Assembly: GCF_000243115.2 (NCBI RefSeq)
Contig: NZ_CP007035.1
Coordinates: 3,534,001-3,598,000, forward strand
From: Niabella soli DSM 19437
GTDB taxonomy: Bacteria > Bacteroidota > Bacteroidia > Chitinophagales > Chitinophagaceae
Length of the DNA stretch: 64,000 nt
Direction of reading: 5' to 3'
In this document: positions 15,709-33,182 of the stretch, piece by piece
How positions within the stretch are numbered: the first letter of the stretch is position 1
Layout of the letters: every line of letters starts with the position of its first letter
Translations under genes and position numbers: made by a program
Notes under the pieces: model-generated
What the model saw: only the letters and a program-made list of their open reading frames with translations
What the model was told of the DNA's origin: nothing
Databases searched by the model: none

Positions 15709-16956
15709 TCAAGAAGGTTCCTTTAGCAGGGTATCGATCAACGCCTCAAATTCTTTTTTAAATTCTTCGTAATGTTTGCCGGTGCCCGGGCCGTTAAAAC
15801 CGGAATGGATTTTTCTTACTTCGCCTTTTTTATCGATAATAATTGAGGTAGGAAAAGCCTTTATACTTTCCAGTTGGGGCAATGTTTTTTCCGTACGCCG
15901 TTCATCCGTAACGCTTACGCCGGTTACAAGGAACGGGTAATGCACCTGGTATCTTTTCTGAAACGGGATCAGCGCCTTGCGCGAAGTTTCAAAATCGCCG
16001 GTACGCTCATACGCCAGTCCGATAATTTCTACGCCGCGGCTATGATTCTTATCGTAATAATTGCTCAGAAAGGCCGTTTCATCCATGCAATTGGGGCACC
16101 AGGACCCCAGGATCTGGATGATGACCACTTTATTTTTATAAGCGGCATCATCCAGCGAAACCATTTTGCCGGAAGTAGAACGGAACCGGAAATGCAGCCG
16201 GTTTTCGCCTTCTCTCATTTTTGTGTACGTATATTCATCAGGTAATTGTGCCGTATCATTCTTTTGCGCAGCCCATTGCATATGGCCTTTCAATCCGGAA
16301 TACATAGCGGCGTTGCGGATGCTGTCCTTGCCCTGCAACAATGCCGTAAATACAAAGGCATGGCCGCCGTCAAACCCCGACAAATGCAGGGAATCGCCGT
16401 TCACAGCGCCCTCTAAATACCGGTAATCGCCCGTTGGCGTTAAGAAGGTACCAGTGATCTTACCATTGGGCTCCTGGGCAAACTCCCCGATCGCCTGTTC
16501 TGTTTTTCCTTTATTTGTTCCAAAGGTTACCGCCCAACGACCGCTGATATCAACCGCCGGAGTTTGGTTTAAAGGGTAGCGTTCAGCATTGCCATGCGTT
16601 GCGAAAAAGGGAATATTCTCTTTTCTAACACCATAATCTTTTGTGTAAATGCCCTTCAGGTTGCCGTCTTTTTCCAGTTGCAACGCAAAGCCCGAGGCGA
16701 AAAAGGGCATTTGTATCCAAACAGAATCTCCTTTTTGTTTTAGGGCATCAACTAAAAGACGTTCACCGGCGTTCAATACATAGAGCACCTGTTTACCCTT
16801 CAGGGTTGCCGTCTCAAAATTAAAAACAATGTTGTTCCCGTCCGGCCGCTGCAGGACGCCCCTCCAGGTGCCGGGTTTCAAATGCGCTGTTTGTGCATTT
16901 ATAACGGGTACCAGCCCCAGCGTCAAACAAAAAGAGAATAAATATTTTTTAAGCAT
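15709..16956 (-). CDS. TlpA-family thioredoxin-fold protein
   Basis: Exported redox protein of 415 residues with a signal peptide (residues 1-21, ending in NAQ). The N-terminal ~270 residues form a beta-rich region of a type often seen in front of Bacteroidota TlpA domains. The C-terminal thioredoxin domain carries the active site WCPNC (Cys287, Cys290) and a cis-Pro region at FPTSIIID. It probably reduces or isomerises disulfides in the periplasm. It follows the SusC/SusD pair on the same strand, but a 138-base palindromic element lies in the 202-base gap, so co-transcription is uncertain. The client protein is unknown. Confidence 0.9.
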   Translation of the reverse strand: MLKKYLFSFCLTLGLVPVINAQTAHLKPGTWRGVLQRPDGNNIVFNFETATLKGKQVLYVLNAGERLLVDALKQKGDSVWIQMPFFASGFALQLEKDGNLKGIYTKDYGVRKENIPFFATHGNAERYPLNQTPAVDISGRWAVTFGTNKGKTEQAIGEFAQEPNGKITGTFLTPTGDYRYLEGAVNGDSLHLSGFDGGHAFVFTALLQGKDSIRNAAMYSGLKGHMQWAAQKNDTAQLPDEYTYTKMREGENRLHFRFRSTSGKMVSLDDAAYKNKVVIIQILGSWCPNCMDETAFLSNYYDKNHSRGVEIIGLAYERTGDFETSRKALIPFQKRYQVHYPFLVTGVSVTDERRTEKTLPQLESIKAFPTSIIIDKKGEVRKIHSGFNGPGTGKHYEEFKKEFEALIDTLLKEPS

Positions 16957-17158: not shown

Positions 17159-18601
17159 TTAATTTACATCAAACCACAACTTGGTCAGTAAATTATCGGT
17201 TCCCTGTGCGGCTACGGCGGCTTTATAATTAGCACCATTCAGTGACTGCTCGGTGCCGGGGTAAATAAACCGCACAGGTATTTTTCCATCCAGTACACCC
17301 GCCTGACCTGACGTAAGCTGCGGATAATCCAACCGGCGCCATTCTGCAAAAGCTTCCAGCCCCTGGCCATACAAGGCGATCCATTTTTGCTCGCCGATCG
17401 ATTTTTTGAAATTTGATGGGTCATAACTTACCGCTGACTGCCCGAGGTAATTATTTATGACCGTGTTGTCGGTTATCTGATATTGATTAAAGGAGGCTGT
17501 TATTGCCTGCCGGTACAAGCTGTTTGCGTCGCCGTTTATGAATCCGCGGGCTACGGCTTCGGCACGGTCAAACAATACTTCGGCATAGCTCATGATCACG
17601 GCAGGATTCGCATCGGAGCGGAAGAAGGTAAGACCCGGTTTTGAGGTTTTGGCAAAGCCGAGGTTATTGGCATCGCTATTGGTAAGGCCGCTGGGAACGC
17701 CCACATATTTGGTGACCGATGGGTCAGTCGGCTTATCGGCATATACCGGCAGGCGCGGGTCATTCAATGCGTATAAACGATCAATAATAGTTTTGCCAAC
17801 CCTGTAATCATCACGGGTTGAAAACCAGGCTGCAACCGGGTTTTGCAGGGGCGACTGATCGTATTTCAATTGGGCGGCTTCTGTTGTGCTGTTGATCAGA
17901 GAGGAGGGATCGGCCGTTACCTCTGCAATTACAGCCTGGGCTTTTTGCGGCTCCCGGTCGGCAATGCGTAACGCGATGCGCAGCCGGAGCGCATTGGCGA
18001 ATTTTTTCCAATTACTTAAATTACCATTGTATAAAGGATCGCCTGCAATGCTTCCCGCAGCGGCATTCAGAGAAGCGGCTGCTGTTTTCAGCTCATCCAG
18101 TAACCCAAAATAGATGTCCTTTTGAGCATCATACACCGGCGTAAGGGTTTGATCGATCTTGCCGGATTCTTTATAGGGGACCGCACCATACGCATCTGTC
18201 AGCAACTGAAAGGTCCAGGAGCGTAGGATGGTGGCTACTGCTTTGTAATTGGCATTGGCCTTTTGATCGGGGAACTGGATGATCGTATTCAGGTTCGTGA
18301 GCACCTGGGCATAGGCCGTATTCCACAAAGAAGTAAAACTGCTGTTGCTGAAAATATACCGGTCGGGTTCCGTATACTGGATCTTGGCCCAATGCTGGAT
18401 AATGAGCAAGGTGGAGTTGAAATTGTTGTCGGCGCCCCAATAAGCATCGGCGCCCAGTTTTTCCGCCGCCGTTAAAAGATAGTCTGGCTGCGGGTCTTCC
18501 ACCGCATTGGGGTTGCGGTTAATTTCTGCCAGATTTTTTTTGCAGGCGGTTAAGGAAAATGCCAAAATGATTATGAAGAGTGTAAATATATTTTTAAACA
18601 T
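17159..18601 (-). CDS. SusD/RagB-family nutrient-binding outer-membrane lipoprotein
   Basis: 480-residue surface lipoprotein: a signal peptide with lipobox LTAC (Cys20) and charged residues right after it, then a helical TPR-like SusD fold. The N-terminal NRNPNAVEDPQPDYLL stretch is typical of the SusD-like_2 group rather than of classic starch SusD. It lies 11 bases after the SusC partner stop, so the two form one transcription unit. SusD proteins cap the SusC barrel and deliver substrate. The transcript appears to be governed by a SAM-I riboswitch upstream of susC, so the cargo is more likely a methionine-related nutrient or peptide than a glycan (inference). Confidence 0.92.
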   Translation of the reverse strand: MFKNIFTLFIIILAFSLTACKKNLAEINRNPNAVEDPQPDYLLTAAEKLGADAYWGADNNFNSTLLIIQHWAKIQYTEPDRYIFSNSSFTSLWNTAYAQVLTNLNTIIQFPDQKANANYKAVATILRSWTFQLLTDAYGAVPYKESGKIDQTLTPVYDAQKDIYFGLLDELKTAAASLNAAAGSIAGDPLYNGNLSNWKKFANALRLRIALRIADREPQKAQAVIAEVTADPSSLINSTTEAAQLKYDQSPLQNPVAAWFSTRDDYRVGKTIIDRLYALNDPRLPVYADKPTDPSVTKYVGVPSGLTNSDANNLGFAKTSKPGLTFFRSDANPAVIMSYAEVLFDRAEAVARGFINGDANSLYRQAITASFNQYQITDNTVINNYLGQSAVSYDPSNFKKSIGEQKWIALYGQGLEAFAEWRRLDYPQLTSGQAGVLDGKIPVRFIYPGTEQSLNGANYKAAVAAQGTDNLLTKLWFDVN

Positions 18602-18612
18602 AGCTGCCGCTT

Positions 18613-21600
18613 TTAAAATTTTAAGTTCAGGTTAAATCCAATATTTCTTACTGTGGGCAACGTAAGATCTTCCAGGCCCTGGGCATTGCCCGTGGTAAAA
18701 GCCACTTCCGGATCAATATTGGGCACTTCCTTATAAAGGATCCAAAGGTTACGCCCCACCACTGAGAAGGTGGCGCCAGTGAACCCGATCTTTTTTATCC
18801 ATGCCGCGGGCAGGTTATAGCCCAGTTTCGCTTCTCTTAGTTTTACATAAGAAGCGCTGTATACATATTCTTCCTCAATATTGCGCGAGGCTTTATAGTA
18901 TTGCGATGCGGGAATAATAGTAGTGTTTTTTTGTCCGTCGGCGGTAACGCCGTTAAAAATCATACCATCGTCATAAACTGTCTCACCATTGGGAGCGTTG
19001 GTGCCCGCCACTGTTCCGTTTGCTTTATTATTGCCGGGATAATAATAGCTTAATCCCCCGTGTGCCGCATCGCGTCCGGGCAAGGTCATGGCCAGTACGC
19101 CGGTATAGCTGCCGGTGGAATTGGTTCCGGCAAAGAGGGAGCCCCCGATATTAGCATCTACCAAAAATGAAAAGCTGAAGTTTTTGTAGGTAAAGCTGTT
19201 AGAAATACCGCCAACCCAGTCTGGCGTGAATTTGCCCAATACTTTTTTATTTGGGTCTGCCAGGGGTATACCGCCTTTGTTTACCACGATGTTGCCATTC
19301 GCATCCCGCAGGTAAGCGTTGCCAAAAAGGGTACCGTAAGCTTTACCCACGGCAGCGATCACTTGTACGTTGCGATAGGAGCCCAGTACATAGTTCTGCA
19401 GACGGCCCTCATAGTCCAGTACCAGCACGCGGCTCCTGTTGGCTGCATAGTTGAGATCTACATTCCACTGGAAGTCTTTATGCCTGATGGGTATCAGTCC
19501 TAATTGTATTTCCACGCCTTTATTGTTGATCTTACCGGCGTTCATCAGCTTTTGATTATACCCGGTTGACGCGGTTACATCTACTTTTAAGATCTGGTTG
19601 ATGCTGTTGGTATTGTATACGCTCAGGTCCAGTCGCACCCGGTTATTGAGGAAGGAAGCTTCGATGCCTGCTTCCGCCGAGTTGGTTGTTTCCGATTTCA
19701 AATCAGGATCCAGATCTACCCCCGAGGTCACCAGTTGGGGGTTACTTAAAAAGGGAGCATTAAAATTGAAGAGATTGATCAGTTGGTAGGGATCGGCTGC
19801 ACTTCCTACCTGCGACCAGCCGCCCCTTAACTTCAGATAATTTAAGGCAGTGCTTTTTATGTTCAATGCATCCGTAAGCACCAGGCTGGCATTTACGGAA
19901 GGATAGAAATAAGACAGGCTTTGCTCGGGCAGTGTGGAAGACCAGTCGTTACGCGCCGTAACGTTCACAAAAGCGAAATTTTTATACCCAACCTGTGCTG
20001 ATGCAAAGGCGCTGTAAGCTTTTAACCGGGAATAAAAATTGGAGGAGATCAGCGGATCTCTTGAATTGGCCAATGTGTATACGCCTGCAACGGCCAAACG
20101 GGGCGCCTGCTGTATATTTTCTTCGTAGGTTTTGGTGCGCTGGTTCCATCCGGCCAACGCATCCAGGCTAAAATCACTGCTTATATTTTTGTTATAGCGC
20201 AGGGTTGCTTCGGTGTTGTTTTCGTTTACCATGTAGGCATCTTCCTCATAAGAACCAAAGGGCGTACCGTTGGTGCCATAAGCTACCTTGAGCTTGCGGC
20301 GGTCATTATAGTAATCAGTACCGGTACGGAAGTTAGCGCTGAGGCCGTCCAGAATGGTATAGTTAACGTTCACATTTCCGATGATCCGGTTCCGTCGCTG
20401 GCTCACCGTATTTTCATAGGCCACCCAGAACGGATTGCTGTAATAGCTGTTGTTCCAGTTAAAGGTATTGCCATTGGCATCTTTATAGTTCCGGAGCTGG
20501 TTCACATCTACCTGCCGGCCGAACCAGGTAAACTGAAGCATGGTACTGGTTGCCCTTTTGCCGCCTGCGCCCGGAAGGTTGGGAGCATTATTGACAATAT
20601 AGTTTGCATTGATGCCTACTTTTAGTCGCTGGGTTACATTATAGTTGGCATTAACAGAAAAGTTATCTTTTTTTGCTTCGCTGTTGGGCACTACGCCCAG
20701 TTGTTTTTCATTGTTATAAGCAATGCGGTAATCGTAATTATCCCCTGCATTTGCCAATGCAATACCATTGCTGAAGGTGGCGCCTGTTCTGAAGTAGTCG
20801 CGCACATTATTCGGGTGCGCCACAAAAGGAACGGCTTGGCCTTTTGAAAAAAACTGCGGTATCAGCCGGCCATCCATTTTCGGGCCCCAGCTTTCATCCA
20901 CACCGTCATTAACCCCACCTCCTTTACCGTCTATGTAGCTAAACTTGCCTTCAGATCCTTGTCCGAATACATTCTGATAATCCGGCAGCAGCAGCAGTTT
21001 CGCGATGTTCACATTGGAATTCAGTGTTACGCCTAACCCGTTTTTTCTTTTACCCGTTTTTGTTTTTATTAAAATGACCCCCTGCGCCGCCCGCGACCCA
21101 TAAAGCGCCGCGGCATTGGGCCCTTTTAAAACGCTTATGGTTTCTATATCTTCCGGGTTCAGATCGGCAATAGCGTTCCTGAAATCGCGGGAGCCGCCGG
21201 CGCCCAATTGAGAGTTATCTACCGGCACTCCGTCTACCACAAAAAGCGGCTGGTTGTTCCCGGCAATAGAAGTCTCTCCCCGTATTACAATGCGCGAGGA
21301 ACCCATATCACCCTGTGTATTGGTGATACGCACTCCCGCTACTTTTCCTGCAAGCGCATTGACGATATTGGTTTCTTTGGCTTCGCCGATGTCCTTAGCT
21401 TTCAATTCCTGGGTAGCATAGCCCAATGATTTTTTTGCCTTGGAAACGCCCAGGGCCGTTACTACTACTTCGTCCAGGGCATTCTCTGCACTTTGCAGGG
21501 ATACCCGCAGCCGGGTTTTAACGCTATCGGTATTTACCTGCCGGTTGGCATACCCAACGTAGGAAAAAAGCAAGATACCGTGTACGCCGGCATCAATCGA

Positions 21601-21786
21601 AAAAGTACCGCGTTCATCGGAAACGGCGCGCCGGTTGGTGCCGGATACTTCTATGGTGACCCCGGTTAAGGGAGTCCCGGTTAACTGATCTGCTACGGTG
21701 CCGGAAATGGTCCGGGTTTGTGCGGCGCCCCATAAGGGTGCGAGAAAGAAAACTGCACAGGTAAGTCGTTTTAGAAATTGGTTCAT
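18613..21786 (-). CDS. SusC/RagA-family TonB-linked outer-membrane receptor
   Basis: 1057-residue TonB-dependent transporter. The ATG at 21786 (MNQFLKRLTC) is preferred to an ORF start 16 codons upstream because it begins the signal peptide (cleavage near GAAQ). Next come a carboxypeptidase-regulatory-like domain (about 25-110, TISGTVADQLTG), the DEVVVTALG TonB-box region, a plug (about 120-230, VVDGVPVDN) and a 22-strand-type beta-barrel ending in LNLKF. It pairs with the SusD lipoprotein downstream. Its leader of about 430 bases contains a SAM-I riboswitch. TonB-driven import of a sulfur amino acid or related compound is the simplest reading, but no transport substrate can be read from the protein itself. 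Confidence 0.94.
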   Translation of the reverse strand: MNQFLKRLTCAVFFLAPLWGAAQTRTISGTVADQLTGTPLTGVTIEVSGTNRRAVSDERGTFSIDAGVHGILLFSYVGYANRQVNTDSVKTRLRVSLQSAENALDEVVVTALGVSKAKKSLGYATQELKAKDIGEAKETNIVNALAGKVAGVRITNTQGDMGSSRIVIRGETSIAGNNQPLFVVDGVPVDNSQLGAGGSRDFRNAIADLNPEDIETISVLKGPNAAALYGSRAAQGVILIKTKTGKRKNGLGVTLNSNVNIAKLLLLPDYQNVFGQGSEGKFSYIDGKGGGVNDGVDESWGPKMDGRLIPQFFSKGQAVPFVAHPNNVRDYFRTGATFSNGIALANAGDNYDYRIAYNNEKQLGVVPNSEAKKDNFSVNANYNVTQRLKVGINANYIVNNAPNLPGAGGKRATSTMLQFTWFGRQVDVNQLRNYKDANGNTFNWNNSYYSNPFWVAYENTVSQRRNRIIGNVNVNYTILDGLSANFRTGTDYYNDRRKLKVAYGTNGTPFGSYEEDAYMVNENNTEATLRYNKNISSDFSLDALAGWNQRTKTYEENIQQAPRLAVAGVYTLANSRDPLISSNFYSRLKAYSAFASAQVGYKNFAFVNVTARNDWSSTLPEQSLSYFYPSVNASLVLTDALNIKSTALNYLKLRGGWSQVGSAADPYQLINLFNFNAPFLSNPQLVTSGVDLDPDLKSETTNSAEAGIEASFLNNRVRLDLSVYNTNSINQILKVDVTASTGYNQKLMNAGKINNKGVEIQLGLIPIRHKDFQWNVDLNYAANRSRVLVLDYEGRLQNYVLGSYRNVQVIAAVGKAYGTLFGNAYLRDANGNIVVNKGGIPLADPNKKVLGKFTPDWVGGISNSFTYKNFSFSFLVDANIGGSLFAGTNSTGSYTGVLAMTLPGRDAAHGGLSYYYPGNNKANGTVAGTNAPNGETVYDDGMIFNGVTADGQKNTTIIPASQYYKASRNIEEEYVYSASYVKLREAKLGYNLPAAWIKKIGFTGATFSVVGRNLWILYKEVPNIDPEVAFTTGNAQGLEDLTLPTVRNIGFNLNLKF

Positions 21787-22095
21787 TGTTCTATTTTGAT
21801 TTAAAATGTTATTGAATGGTTGATCTAAGGGCATAAGGGGGCCTTTCGGTTTTCACCGTTCTTTAAAAAAGAAATAAAATGTGGTATTATATCAGCAACA
21901 ACAAAGTTGCATTCGCGCAGTAAGCGATCCCGTTACTTTCGGTTTACAAAAATTCCCATACCTGTAGTTGGTTAATTCATTCCTTTTTCTCACTAATTGC
22001 ATTTTTGTGTTCATCTTCAAAAATTGCTTTACAAAAATTTGTTATGGAAAGAAAATCGTGAATGGGGGACAATGCACGCGGCACTGTTTGATTCA

Positions 22096-22195
22096 CTTAT
22101 CTTTCCGCCTGCTGGCAGATGGATGTAGCACCGTTTCCAATAGTGGCGGTTGCTAAGACTTCTACGGGCCATTTCCCTCCGTCTTTCTTGATAAG
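22096..22195 (-). promoter_or_regulatory. SAM-I (S-box) riboswitch in the susC leader
   Basis: Read on the minus strand, the 100 bases contain the S-box conserved blocks in order: CTTATCAAGA (P1 5' side), GGAGGGAAATGGCCC, AGCAACC, GGTGCTACATCC, and GGAAAGATAAG closing P1. This matches the S-box consensus block for block, with a short P3 arm. It starts about 25 bases after a canonical promoter -7 box and ends about 310 bases before the susC ATG. No clear terminator follows; a weak CGTG/CACG hairpin plus a short T-rich stretch near 22050-22085 is the only candidate expression platform. SAM binding is expected to lower expression of the SusC/SusD importer. Confidence 0.93.
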
Positions 22196-22220
22196 CTGCT
22201 CTTTTTTGTTAAAGGCAGGG

Positions 22221-22251
22221 CAAAGGTATATGTTAAAATAGTACTAACAAA
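22221..22251 (-). promoter_or_regulatory. Canonical Bacteroidota promoter of the susC/susD unit
   Basis: On the minus strand, TTTG (22251-22248) is followed by exactly 19 bases and then TACCTTTG (22228-22221). This is a full match to the TTTG-N19-TAnnTTTG consensus. It places transcription start near 22215, just before the SAM-I riboswitch. Confidence 0.8.
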
Positions 22252-22292
22252 ATAATTTTCTACAAAATAAGTAGACTAATATTAAGGACCGA

Positions 22293-22344
22293 TTGCCACT
22301 GGAACACAGAAGCACAGAAAGTATTGGTGTTTTCTGTGCTTCTG
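22293..22344. repeat. 14-bp perfect inverted repeat with interspersed-repeat sequence
   Basis: CAGAAGCACAGAAA (22307-22320) pairs perfectly with TTTCTGTGCTTCTG (22331-22344) around a 10-base loop. The left arm extends into TTGCCACTGGAACACAGAAG, shared with 15526-15545. It lies just downstream of the DUF3472 stop (minus strand) and could work as a terminator, though no T-run follows on that strand. Confidence 0.7.
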
Positions 22345-30475: not shown

Positions 30476-30504
30476 CCTCCTAAGTTCTTTCATTTTTCAT
30501 CAAC

Positions 30505-30670
30505 CGGAAAGGGTCCTTAATGAAGATTAGGGATAATAGGGAATCGTGTTTCAATCACGAGCTGTCGCGCAACTGTAATCAGCCAAAGGCGTTGCCCATG
30601 TAATATCCACTGTCCTGTTAAAAGGGATGGGAAGGATGGTAAACGCCGCTGTAAGCCAGGAGACCTGCCT
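30505..30670 (+). promoter_or_regulatory. Cobalamin (B12) riboswitch controlling metE
   Basis: Conserved blocks appear in order: GGATAATAGGGAATC (30531-30545), a P5-type hairpin GAATCGTG...CACGAG, GCTGTCGCGCAACTGTAATC (30561-30580), CCACTG (30607-30612), GGGAAGGATGG (30629-30639), and the B12 box AGCCAGGAGACCTGCC (30654-30669). Outer boundaries are approximate. Adenosyl- or methylcobalamin binding is expected to repress metE, so that B12-dependent methionine synthase takes over when B12 is present. This is a well-established arrangement for metE. Confidence 0.95.
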
Positions 30671-30818
30671 TTTCCGTAGGAACAATGCTTTCGCGGTTTG
30701 AAGCAACGATCAGTATGGTGCCTGTTCTTTTGCAACGGAATATTCCTTGCCTATCTCCGTCGGCAGCATCAGCTATTTTTACTTTTACCATAGTACAGCA
30801 TTGCGAAATCTGCAAGGG

Positions 30819-30854: not shown

Positions 30855-33182
30855 ATGCAAACGCACAACCTCGGCTACCCGCGTATTGGTAGCAACCGGG
30901 AACTAAAAAAAGCCTGCGAACAGTATTGGCAACGCAGGATCGACGGCCGCCAACTGGAACAAACAGCCAGAGCCATCCGCAACAACAACTGGCAACTTCA
31001 AAAAGACGCCGGCATTGATCTTATCCCGGTAAATGATTTTTCGTTCTACGACCAGGTGCTGGACACCTGCCTGATGACGGGCGCTATTCCTGAACGCTAC
31101 CATCCCCTGATGGAACGGGAGCGCTTAAACGATCTGGATCTGTTCTTTGCGATGGCAAGAGGGTATCAGCAAAACGGATATGATCTTACGGCAATGGAAA
31201 TGACTAAGTGGTTTGATACCAACTACCACTATATCGTACCTGAATTCAGGAAAGATCAAAAATTCTCTTTCTTTAATCAAACTGTAATACACCAGTTTAT
31301 CGAAGCAAAGAAAGCAGGTTATGCCGCAAAACCTGTGTTGATCGGACCGGTAACCTTTCTGCTGTCTGGAAAAGAAAAAGAAGCAGGCTTTCATCGTATT
31401 GATCTGCTAAAAAATCTGCTACCGGTATATATTGAAGTGCTGGAAAAACTGGATGCCTGCGGCGCTTTTTATGTGCAACTGGATGAACCTTGTTTGGCGC
31501 TGGATCTTTCCAGGGAAGAACAACAAGCGCTTATTATTGCATACACCACGCTTCAGAAGCGCGTACCGAATATTAAAATTATTTTGACCAATTACTTTGA
31601 TTGTTTTGGAAAGAACCTGGAAACGGCCCTCAGTCTTCCGGTACATACATTGCACGTCGACCTGGTGCGCTGCCCTTCGCAATTAGATGATATCCTGGCT
31701 ACCGGGTTCGTCAATGCCCGAACACATTTGTCTCTTGGAATTGTGGACGGCAGAAATATCTGGAAAAATAATTTTCAGCGATCCCTTACCCTTATTGAAA
31801 CCGCAAAACAAAAGATCGGAGCCGATCGGATCTGGCTGGCTCCTTCCTGCTCCCTTTTGCATGTGCCCTGCGATCTGGATATGGAAACAGAGGAAAAAAA
31901 TCTTACCGGGGAAATCAAACAGTGGGTGGCCTTTGCCAAACAAAAGCTGGCAGAAGTGGCAGTGCTGAAACAAATAGCAACAAGTCCGGACAAGCCCAAT
32001 TCAAAAGCACTCCTGGCAGAGAATACGCGCTGTATCGAGGCCCGCAACACCTCCTCATTGATCCATAATCAGCAGGTGAAAGCACGTGTAACGGCTATCA
32101 CCGCTTCGGATGCTGAAAGAAAAAGCTCTTTTCCCATAAGAAAAGAAAAACAACAGGAGCTGGATCTTCCGCTTTTTGCCACCACCACGATCGGTTCTTT
32201 TCCTCAGACAAAAGAGATACGTAACTGGCGGGCACAGTGGAAAAAGCAACAGCTTTCTGATACGGATTATAATCAACTGCTGCAAGAAGCGACCAATAAG
32301 GCCATTCAATGGCAGGAGACGATCGGGCTGGACGTGTTGGTACACGGGGAGTTTGAGCGTAATGACATGGTGGAATATTTTGGCGAACAGCTGGCGGGCT
32401 TTGCCTTTACCCAAAATGGCTGGGTACAGAGCTACGGCAGCCGCTGTGTAAAACCTCCTGTGCTCTACGGCGATGTATGCCGCCCCAGGCCCATGACCGT
32501 TGGATGGAGTGCCTACGCCCAATCACTGACCGGCAAGCCTGTAAAGGGAATGCTTACAGGGCCCGTCACTATTTTGCAGTGGAGCTTTGTACGCGATGAT
32601 CAGCCCCGCAGCGTTACCTGCAACCAGATTGCACTGGCCATCCGTGATGAAGTGTTGGATCTGGAAAAAGCGGGTATAAAAATCATCCAGATTGATGAGC
32701 CGGCGATAAGGGAAGGGTTACCTTTAAGAAAGGAACAACAGCCGGAGTACCTGAAGTGGGCAGTAACAGCCTTTCGCATTACATCTGCCGGTGTTCAGGA
32801 TAAAACACAGATCCATACACATATGTGTTATTCAGAATTCAATGATATTATTGATCATATTGCTGCAATGGATGCGGACGTGATCACGATAGAGACCTCG
32901 CGCTCCCAAATGGAGCTGCTGGATGCCTTTGCTTCATTTGAATATCCGAACGATATCGGGCCAGGCGTATATGATATTCACGCGCCCCGTGTTCCGTCAA
33001 AAGAAGAAATGATGGGACTGATGGAAAAGGCGTTAACTTATATTCCGGCGGAACGCCTGTGGGTAAATCCCGACTGTGGTTTAAAAACGCGCGGCTGGGA
33101 AGAGACTTCCCAGGCATTGATTGCAATGGTCCAAGCAGCAAAAACATTGCGTAAAAAAATAAACGCTCCTGTCCCGGAATAA
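30855..33182 (+). CDS. metE: Cobalamin-independent methionine synthase
   Basis: 775-residue cytoplasmic enzyme that transfers a methyl group from 5-methyltetrahydrofolate polyglutamate to homocysteine. Both MetE barrels are present. The N-terminal half opens with NLGYPRIGSNRELKKA, and the catalytic half holds TTIGSFPQT. Zinc ligands are His656, Cys658, Glu680 and Cys741, with exactly the 2-22-61 spacing of E. coli MetE. Expression is governed by the cobalamin riboswitch in the leader, which implies that the cell also has a B12-dependent enzyme (metH) elsewhere. A small CWC protein gene starts 2 bases after the stop. Confidence 0.98.
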   Translation: MQTHNLGYPRIGSNRELKKACEQYWQRRIDGRQLEQTARAIRNNNWQLQKDAGIDLIPVNDFSFYDQVLDTCLMTGAIPERYHPLMERERLNDLDLFFAMARGYQQNGYDLTAMEMTKWFDTNYHYIVPEFRKDQKFSFFNQTVIHQFIEAKKAGYAAKPVLIGPVTFLLSGKEKEAGFHRIDLLKNLLPVYIEVLEKLDACGAFYVQLDEPCLALDLSREEQQALIIAYTTLQKRVPNIKIILTNYFDCFGKNLETALSLPVHTLHVDLVRCPSQLDDILATGFVNARTHLSLGIVDGRNIWKNNFQRSLTLIETAKQKIGADRIWLAPSCSLLHVPCDLDMETEEKNLTGEIKQWVAFAKQKLAEVAVLKQIATSPDKPNSKALLAENTRCIEARNTSSLIHNQQVKARVTAITASDAERKSSFPIRKEKQQELDLPLFATTTIGSFPQTKEIRNWRAQWKKQQLSDTDYNQLLQEATNKAIQWQETIGLDVLVHGEFERNDMVEYFGEQLAGFAFTQNGWVQSYGSRCVKPPVLYGDVCRPRPMTVGWSAYAQSLTGKPVKGMLTGPVTILQWSFVRDDQPRSVTCNQIALAIRDEVLDLEKAGIKIIQIDEPAIREGLPLRKEQQPEYLKWAVTAFRITSAGVQDKTQIHTHMCYSEFNDIIDHIAAMDADVITIETSRSQMELLDAFASFEYPNDIGPGVYDIHAPRVPSKEEMMGLMEKALTYIPAERLWVNPDCGLKTRGWEETSQALIAMVQAAKTLRKKINAPVPE

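Follow-up and report, generated by a model that had tools for sequence, protein, structure and literature searches.

A SusC/SusD transporter pair of Niabella soli behind a SAM-I riboswitch and a cysteine-run leader peptide, a probable importer of sulfur nutrients

The analysis described here indicates that a SusC/SusD outer-membrane transporter pair of the soil bacterium Niabella soli is probably under S-box-type control and, judged from its sequence context, very likely takes up a sulfur nutrient, not a sugar. The pair is encoded in a stretch of 64,000 nucleotides (NZ_CP007035.1, positions 3534001–3598000 of a 4.70-Mb single-contig genome whose closest named relatives are Niabella; hereafter the window, numbered from its first letter). 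Bacteroidota have large numbers of SusC/SusD pairs, mostly assumed to be glycan importers, and to our knowledge few substrates have been assigned to members of the SusD-like_2 group. Beyond the aptamer noticed in a first-pass annotation of the same DNA, two more sulfur signals are observed at this locus, a candidate operator shared with sulfate assimilation and an upstream ORF (uORF) ending in a run of Cys codons; the presence, order, and conservation of these parts are matters of observation. We consider it probable that the pair is a sulfur-starvation importer with three stacked sulfur controls and with cyst(e)ine- or sulfur-rich peptides as its most likely substrates.

The SusC protein, encoded on the minus strand (18613..21786), matches the TonB-dependent transporter model TIGR04056 with 602 bits (cut-off 368), comprises plug and barrel domains, and adjoins its SusD partner (17159..18601, minus strand), a lipoprotein of the SusD-like_2 family (PF12771, E 3.2e-109; 366 bits versus a gathering threshold of 27), in agreement with the earlier assignment of a SusC/SusD pair 3′ of the aptamer on the same strand. 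For SusC, a start at 21786 is favored over the mechanical ORF start at 21834, because the sequence MNQFLKRL is conserved and the congeneric proteins have 1057 aa. SusD has no close paralog in the genome (1039 bits versus 215 for the next of 10 profile matches); its structure predicted from seven sequences had a mean pLDDT of 52, and no conclusions were drawn from it. After a gap of 202 nt follows a redoxin/TlpA-like protein (15709..16956, minus strand; PF08534/PF00578, ResA-like under the cut-off), possibly encoded by the third gene of the operon. Among solved structures, SusC best matches BT_2264 (E 2.6e-117; next 3.4e-44), whose pair with BT_2263 is described in excerpts of two papers as solved with a bound peptide (PMC7782687; PMC11817032); this match is weak evidence for peptides, because few SusC structures have been solved. 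The best solved match of SusD is 5j5u, with BT_2263 lower in the list (E 7.7e-28). As regards a glycan substrate, no CAZyme recurs beside the pair in most of 80 orthologous loci, a GH36 gene (c15) occurring in 5 of the 80 and a GH35 gene elsewhere in the window. At a distance of 8 kb from the SAM-I aptamer, a cobalamin riboswitch (30494–30686, plus strand, 108 bits) precedes the gene of the B12-independent methionine synthase MetE (30855–33182, plus strand), which is a classical arrangement; the metE leader contains one uORF, without a Cys run.

The aptamer (22094..22197, minus strand) matches the SAM-I model RF00162 with 76.6 bits (E 3.1e-16; gathering threshold 44.4), and the cmscan alignment spans model positions 1–108, that is, the full-length four-helix aptamer. 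The covariance model has thereby borne out the complete S-box aptamer proposed upstream of SusC/SusD, and an E-value-based Rfam scan of 21760–22330 gave a single extra match, on the opposite strand and far under the threshold of its family. In the minimum free energy (MFE) fold, a long hairpin, GGAAAGA...UCUUUCC (22046..22106, minus strand), forms a candidate expression platform, in which GGAAAGA comprises bases common to the 3′ strands of P4 and P1; a terminator-like hairpin is nested within it (22058–22096) and followed by GAUUUUCUUU. The MFE of 22035–22130 is −25.7 kcal/mol (z −3.9), equaled by none of 200 shuffled sequences. Nineteen pairs of the platform hairpin are kept in the eight Niabella leaders with none changed on both sides, and the compensatory changes that the alignment had suggested by eye found no support in these pair counts; no conservation of the hairpin was found in the leader of a Filimonas metagenome-assembled genome (MAG). 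This layout would suit a SAM-off terminator switch. The SusC aptamers of Niabella and the Filimonas MAG have GGTGCTACATCC at J3/4 where most others have GGTGCTAATTCC, a variant that could tune the affinity.

Upstream of the aptamer, TTTG-N19-TAccTTTG (22221..22251, minus strand) is an exact match to the Bacteroidota-type promoter consensus TTTG-N19-TAnnTTTG invoked in the first-pass annotation. The motif alone is not rare: the window has two exact matches, shuffled sequences average 0.48, and 6 of 100 shuffles reach two. Both boxes are identical in all nine aligned orthologous leaders (eight Niabella genomes and the Filimonas MAG), and the exact motif is absent from most SusC orthologs outside Niabella.

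The candidate operator, an inverted repeat found by pattern match 5′ of this promoter (TAGTCTAC-N7-GTAG; 22260..22278, minus strand), has one exact match in the window and none in 100 shuffles, four in the 4.7-Mb genome versus one for a reversed control, and 64 over 17 Niabella genomes versus three for that control, palindromes being counted twice. It stands at the SusC promoter in all eight Niabella genomes in which the SAM-I–SusCD locus was found and, with one base different, in the Filimonas MAG; outside Niabella, a loose regular expression detected an operator-like repeat in only four SusC leaders (L129, L149, L161, and L168). Besides the copy at the SusC promoter, one genomic copy precedes a sulfate-assimilation operon and two precede a TonB receptor gene adjoining that operon. 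The operon encodes an AhpC/TSA peroxiredoxin, CysH, CysD, CysN, a tetrapyrrole methylase, a flavoprotein reductase, a sulfite-reductase-like protein, a CysE-like protein, and a TauE/sirohaem protein, and lies directly 3′ of an Rrf2-family gene (PF02082; 118 bits in the superfamily test versus 73). At 30 operator loci examined in congeners, the adjoining genes are those of SusC, Prx-CysH-Rrf2, TauE, the TonB receptor, PhyH-like proteins, a second SusC (about 30% identity), and others.

Some of these neighboring genes deserve mention in their own right. The TonB receptor beside the sulfate operon (989 aa; L228:8382-11351, minus strand, corresponding to C1:3994381-3997350 of the N. soli genome) has, in addition to its two operator copies, a Cys-containing leader ORF (MDTVQFNNHHRIMCSGTMHPAAACCSSRS before the stop codon), and Cys-containing leader ORFs precede this receptor both here and in relatives (L228, L251, L257, and L249). 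It is a candidate for a second sulfur importer and, in the loci seen, does not form a SusC/SusD pair. A PhyH-like gene (PF05721) adjoins the operator in several Niabella genomes (L232, L235, L241, L243, and L259) and lies 3′ of a SAM-I-controlled cystathionine-type gene in L259, L094, and L087; its product is possibly an organosulfur oxygenase, and an Rfam scan of one PhyH locus gave no match.

The arrangement of SAM-I before SusC/SusD recurs widely. SAM-I was found in 16 of the 17 Niabella genomes, with 35 sites listed, eight of which (one of them in the window genome) precede SusC–SusD–redoxin orthologs with identities to the window proteins of 82–91% (SusC), 81–94% (SusD), and 74–94% (redoxin); this figure of eight genomes in 17 refers to the SAM-I sites examined, not to SusCD genes as such. 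The Filimonas MAG has the same SAM-I–SusCD arrangement at 73% and 72% identity. For the survey of orthologous pairs that the first-pass annotation had suggested, the best 80 of 139 SusD relatives were taken from named genomes, and two loci in which a contig end cuts the leader (L141 and L147) were left out of the leader counts, leaving 78 leaders. Within this sample of the best 80 of 139, a SAM-I match (by a model built from 28 sites) occurs in 47 of the 80 loci; in 45 of the 78 leaders it precedes SusC in the same orientation at a distance of at most 2.5 kb (at most 500 nt in 33 of those 45), and the other 33 leaders have none. The SAM-I–SusC loci span Chitinophagaceae, Sphingobacteriaceae, and Spirosomataceae, mainly in Pedobacter and Mucilaginibacter, and also in Niabella, Sediminibacterium, Flavihumibacter, Hufsiella, Arcticibacter, and Dyadobacter, the match in the last being weak (45 bits). 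Mapped on a SusD tree with 81 rows, the presence of SAM-I requires 10 changes against 25.4 when shuffled, indicating that it is clustered, yet gained or lost several times. A distant SusC/SusD pair of another genus (L115 in genome G102; 26% identity) is preceded by a SAM-I of its own and by a leader ORF ending in QRCCCCCCMG, apparently an independent recruitment.

Between the aptamer and SusC, the window contains a uORF of 40 codons (21892..22014, minus strand; MNTK...LTARMQLCCC), and a Cys-run uORF is present in all eight Niabella SusC leaders. Again in leaders from the best 80 of 139 relatives, a CCC-containing uORF occurs in 29 of 78 (shuffle mean 0.2, maximum 2), and a uORF with at least five Cys plus Met in its last 12 residues, a score defined after the window peptide had been seen, in 33 of 78 (shuffle mean 0.13, maximum 1). 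The same test applied to the leaders of other genes in these loci, taken at 300 nt and hence slightly shorter, was positive in 3 of 217. The Cys codons of the uORFs are mixed (TGT 73, TGC 64), which points to conservation of the amino acid and not of a DNA repeat. The signal is weaker in Pedobacter, because many of its uORFs have just one or two Cys (...MRMPC before the stop), and some orthologs, in Paraflavitalea, Niastella, Segetibacter, and one Mucilaginibacter, have a Cys run without SAM-I. When the window is included (79 leaders, the others from the best 80 of 139), 33 have both elements, 23 have neither, 13 have only SAM-I, and 10 have only the uORF, so that 13 of the 46 SAM-I leaders have no uORF scoring at least 4. 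On the SusD tree, SAM-I and the uORF do not co-vary beyond kinship (eight independent pairs, median p 0.69). Across the genome, the CCC-stop pattern has 59 matches, and among the 30 with loci examined only one (L199) is an ATG-started uORF outside long ORFs, with no gene 3′ of it on the same strand within 1.5 kb. The MQLCCC end of the window peptide places the regulatory codons near the end of a leader ORF, as in attenuators, but no structured terminator was found 3′ of it in the window leader, the only one folded (21786–21920, z −0.44), which leaves classical attenuation as no more than a possibility.

The two elements are also found in series before other genes. The genome of N. soli has exactly two SAM-I matches, and the one not at SusCD is upstream of genes for an OAH/OAS sulfhydrylase (metY; TIGR01326, 666 versus 495 bits), a MetX-like protein, and homoserine dehydrogenase. 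A separate set of 70 SAM-I sites outside this SusCD was sorted by the next gene, after L002, L046, and L051 (this SusCD or its orthologs) and L016 and L017 (short loci) had been left out. A Cys/Met-rich uORF precedes metY at 21 of the 24 sites of that class (15/16 in Niabella, which contributes 16 of the 24, and 6/8 in others), and is found at none of 30 sites before cystathionine synthase/lyase-type genes, none of five before homoserine dehydrogenase, and none of two before MetH; the counts are 1/2 for CysH-like, 1/2 for SusC-like, and 1/5 for other genes. A further SAM-I–CysH leader, L113, has a uORF ending in DACCCCCNSSCCMQ before the stop, giving two of three SAM-I–cysH leaders, L070 being the one without. 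Leaders without a uORF are generally shorter (medians of 166 and 135 versus 322 nt), a difference that bears on these counts. Among 20 SAM-I sites from other families, the metY class has the uORF in three of six (L303, L304, and L311; not L292, L300, and L306), and both SusC leaders score 4–5. From these sequence counts, the uORF appears to go with sulfur acquisition. The designation of the 30 uORF-free genes as cystathionine gamma-synthases was softened, the reference L008 being nearest to cystathionine lyase/synthase models, all under the cut-off. In genome G276, SAM-I precedes a gene of 332 aa with a uORF, MRRAGMGCCCCCWLA before the stop codon (L299).

The genes accompanying SusCD were compared in the best 80 of 139 relatives. 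Redoxin clusters adjoin the pair in 49 of these 80 loci (29 on the same strand, 20 divergent), and a cysteine-desulfurase-like gene is present in seven. Some members of the neighbor clusters were profiled, the desulfurase-like ones matching NifS models best, under the cut-off. In L160 and L180, SAM-I is followed by the desulfurase-like gene, a redoxin gene, SusC, and SusD, and in L197 by the desulfurase-like gene and SusC; SAM-I lies directly 5′ of the desulfurase-like gene in L161, L166, and L171, and likewise in a locus of another family (L305). In some Mucilaginibacter loci (L139, L169, L179, and L187), a gene of the PIG-L (GlcNAc-PI de-N-acetylase) family, which includes enzymes of low-molecular-weight thiol synthesis, is found 3′ of SusCD.

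In the predicted mechanism of control, the Rrf2-family regulator would act on SusC through the inverted repeat 5′ of the promoter, just as on the sulfate-assimilation operon. By analogy with the strongly matched riboswitch family, the SAM-I aptamer would fold when SAM is plentiful, and the terminator-like hairpin behind it would stop transcription, whereas, when SAM is lacking, the longer hairpin may form from the 3′ strands of P4 and P1 and absorb the U-tract. Ribosomes would then translate the uORF, and its codon content suggests that they stall at the terminal Cys codons when Cys-tRNA is short, allowing SusC to be expressed. The substrate is presumed to be a sulfur nutrient whose size prevents passive entry. 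Given the BT_2264 match together with the redoxin, the desulfurase, and the Cys control, peptides rich in cyst(e)ine or sulfur are the most economical guess. The TlpA-like redoxin may reduce disulfides of the imported substrate, and in relatives the cysteine-desulfurase-like enzymes may free sulfur that MetY would pass into homocysteine and onward to methionine and SAM. A wider reading is that Bacteroidota possess a serial sulfur switch, SAM-I followed by a Cys/Met leader peptide, that reads SAM and Cys-tRNA and serves metY, sulfate reduction, and SusCD, not cystathionine-type genes, with SusCD being a dedicated cyst(e)ine/sulfur-peptide importer whose sulfur reaches MetY via redoxin and desulfurase; taken as a whole, we regard this as tentative, its chances falling a little short of even.

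Several other readings have to be weighed against these. It is hardly credible that the aptamer is nonfunctional, either decayed or present by chance. Its Niabella versions do carry J3/4 GGTGCTACATCC in place of the commoner GGTGCTAATTCC or GGTGCCAATTCC, but the score is well above the cut-off (76.6 versus 44.4 bits), the aptamer is retained in eight Niabella genomes despite diverging flanks, and it is found in many other genera; a chance or artefactual origin was ruled out by the full-length model match and this conservation. As to the substrate, the first-pass annotation had expected methionine, methionine peptides, or another sulfur nutrient rather than a glycan. The sulfur nutrient is upheld by the agreement of the S-box-type control, the operator, the Cys-run leader peptide, and the thiol/desulfurase neighbors, and methionine in particular is not. 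An importer of methionine or its peptides, with SAM-I providing product feedback, would accord with the sensing by SAM-I of the product of methionine and with the Met codons also frequent near uORF ends (e.g., MRCCC and MRMPC before the stop); we nevertheless judge it unlikely, since the uORFs are marked mostly by Cys runs, sulfate assimilation uses the same operator, and the genes found alongside, disulfide redoxins and cysteine-desulfurase-like, act on cysteine chemistry. For these reasons cyst(e)ine- or general sulfur peptides fit better.

The pair might instead import peptides in general, or another nutrient that is not sulfur-rich, and merely have been placed under sulfur control. Regulation and substrate need not match, and the nearest solved relative of SusC is the peptide-bound BT_2264; on the other side, SAM-I is found repeatedly 5′ of orthologs from several families, and also 5′ of a distant SusCD, and three sulfur signals converge at the SusC promoter, leaving this a minority possibility in our estimation. 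A comparable, rather low probability is given to the idea that the Cys-rich uORF is a redox or metal sensor, or encodes a small protein with its own job, instead of an attenuator. Cys-rich uORFs sensing copper have been reported in Bordetella, and the lack of a terminator after the window uORF would be in keeping with such a role, but the leader peptides differ in length and sequence with little in common beyond the Cys/Met end, the Cys codons directly precede the stop, and the genes behind these uORFs are genes of sulfur metabolism.

With a sulfur-starvation importer as the preferred reading, the regulatory signature predicts a sulfur substrate for a group of SusCD pairs, which could be put to the test in growth assays with organic sulfur compounds. 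Should the riboswitch and the leader peptide work one after the other, signals from the SAM and cysteine branches of sulfur metabolism would be combined on a single mRNA leader, and the genes carrying both (metY, sulfate reduction, and import) would show how sulfur acquisition is separated from transsulfuration.

The aptamer, the transporter family, and the Cys leader peptides are each of known kinds, and searches of open-licence literature, which leaves most subscription journals outside, brought up no published description of their serial combination before SusCD, metY, and sulfate genes in Bacteroidota. The pair is worth comparing with BT_2263/BT_2264 of Bacteroides thetaiotaomicron (PDB 5fq6–5fq8), the nearest solved relative of the window SusC; the window SusD also matches BT_2263, although its best solved match is another protein. 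The sulfate-operon operator of N. soli is adjoined by a gene of the Rrf2 family, to which the sulfur regulator CymR also belongs, but its score of 67.2 against the cut-off of 195 of the CymR equivalog model NF047409 places it outside CymR by that test. Cys-run leader peptides are described upstream of the cys operons of Mycobacterium and P. acnes and of cbs of B. longum, with Rho-dependent termination proposed for the actinobacterial peptides (PMC1262725). Those peptides and the present ones share a short ORF with a Cys run near the stop, a position before sulfur genes, and the lack of an evident terminator, whereas the present ones occur in Bacteroidota, behind SAM-I, and before transporters and metY. 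The uORFC-8-2 motif before cysS of Rhodobacterales, for which an excerpt describes tandem Cys codons and predicted ribosome-mediated attenuation (PMC8632094), likewise has a uORF with tandem Cys codons; that motif has a terminator stem and two Cys codons, whereas here three to eight Cys/Met stand at the end and no terminator was found. Finally, the window aptamer has the sequence and fold of SAM-I (RF00162) over the whole model and the same position in a 5′ leader, but in place of the usual targets, genes of methionine and SAM synthesis, it precedes an outer-membrane SusC/SusD pair, in series with a Cys-run uORF.
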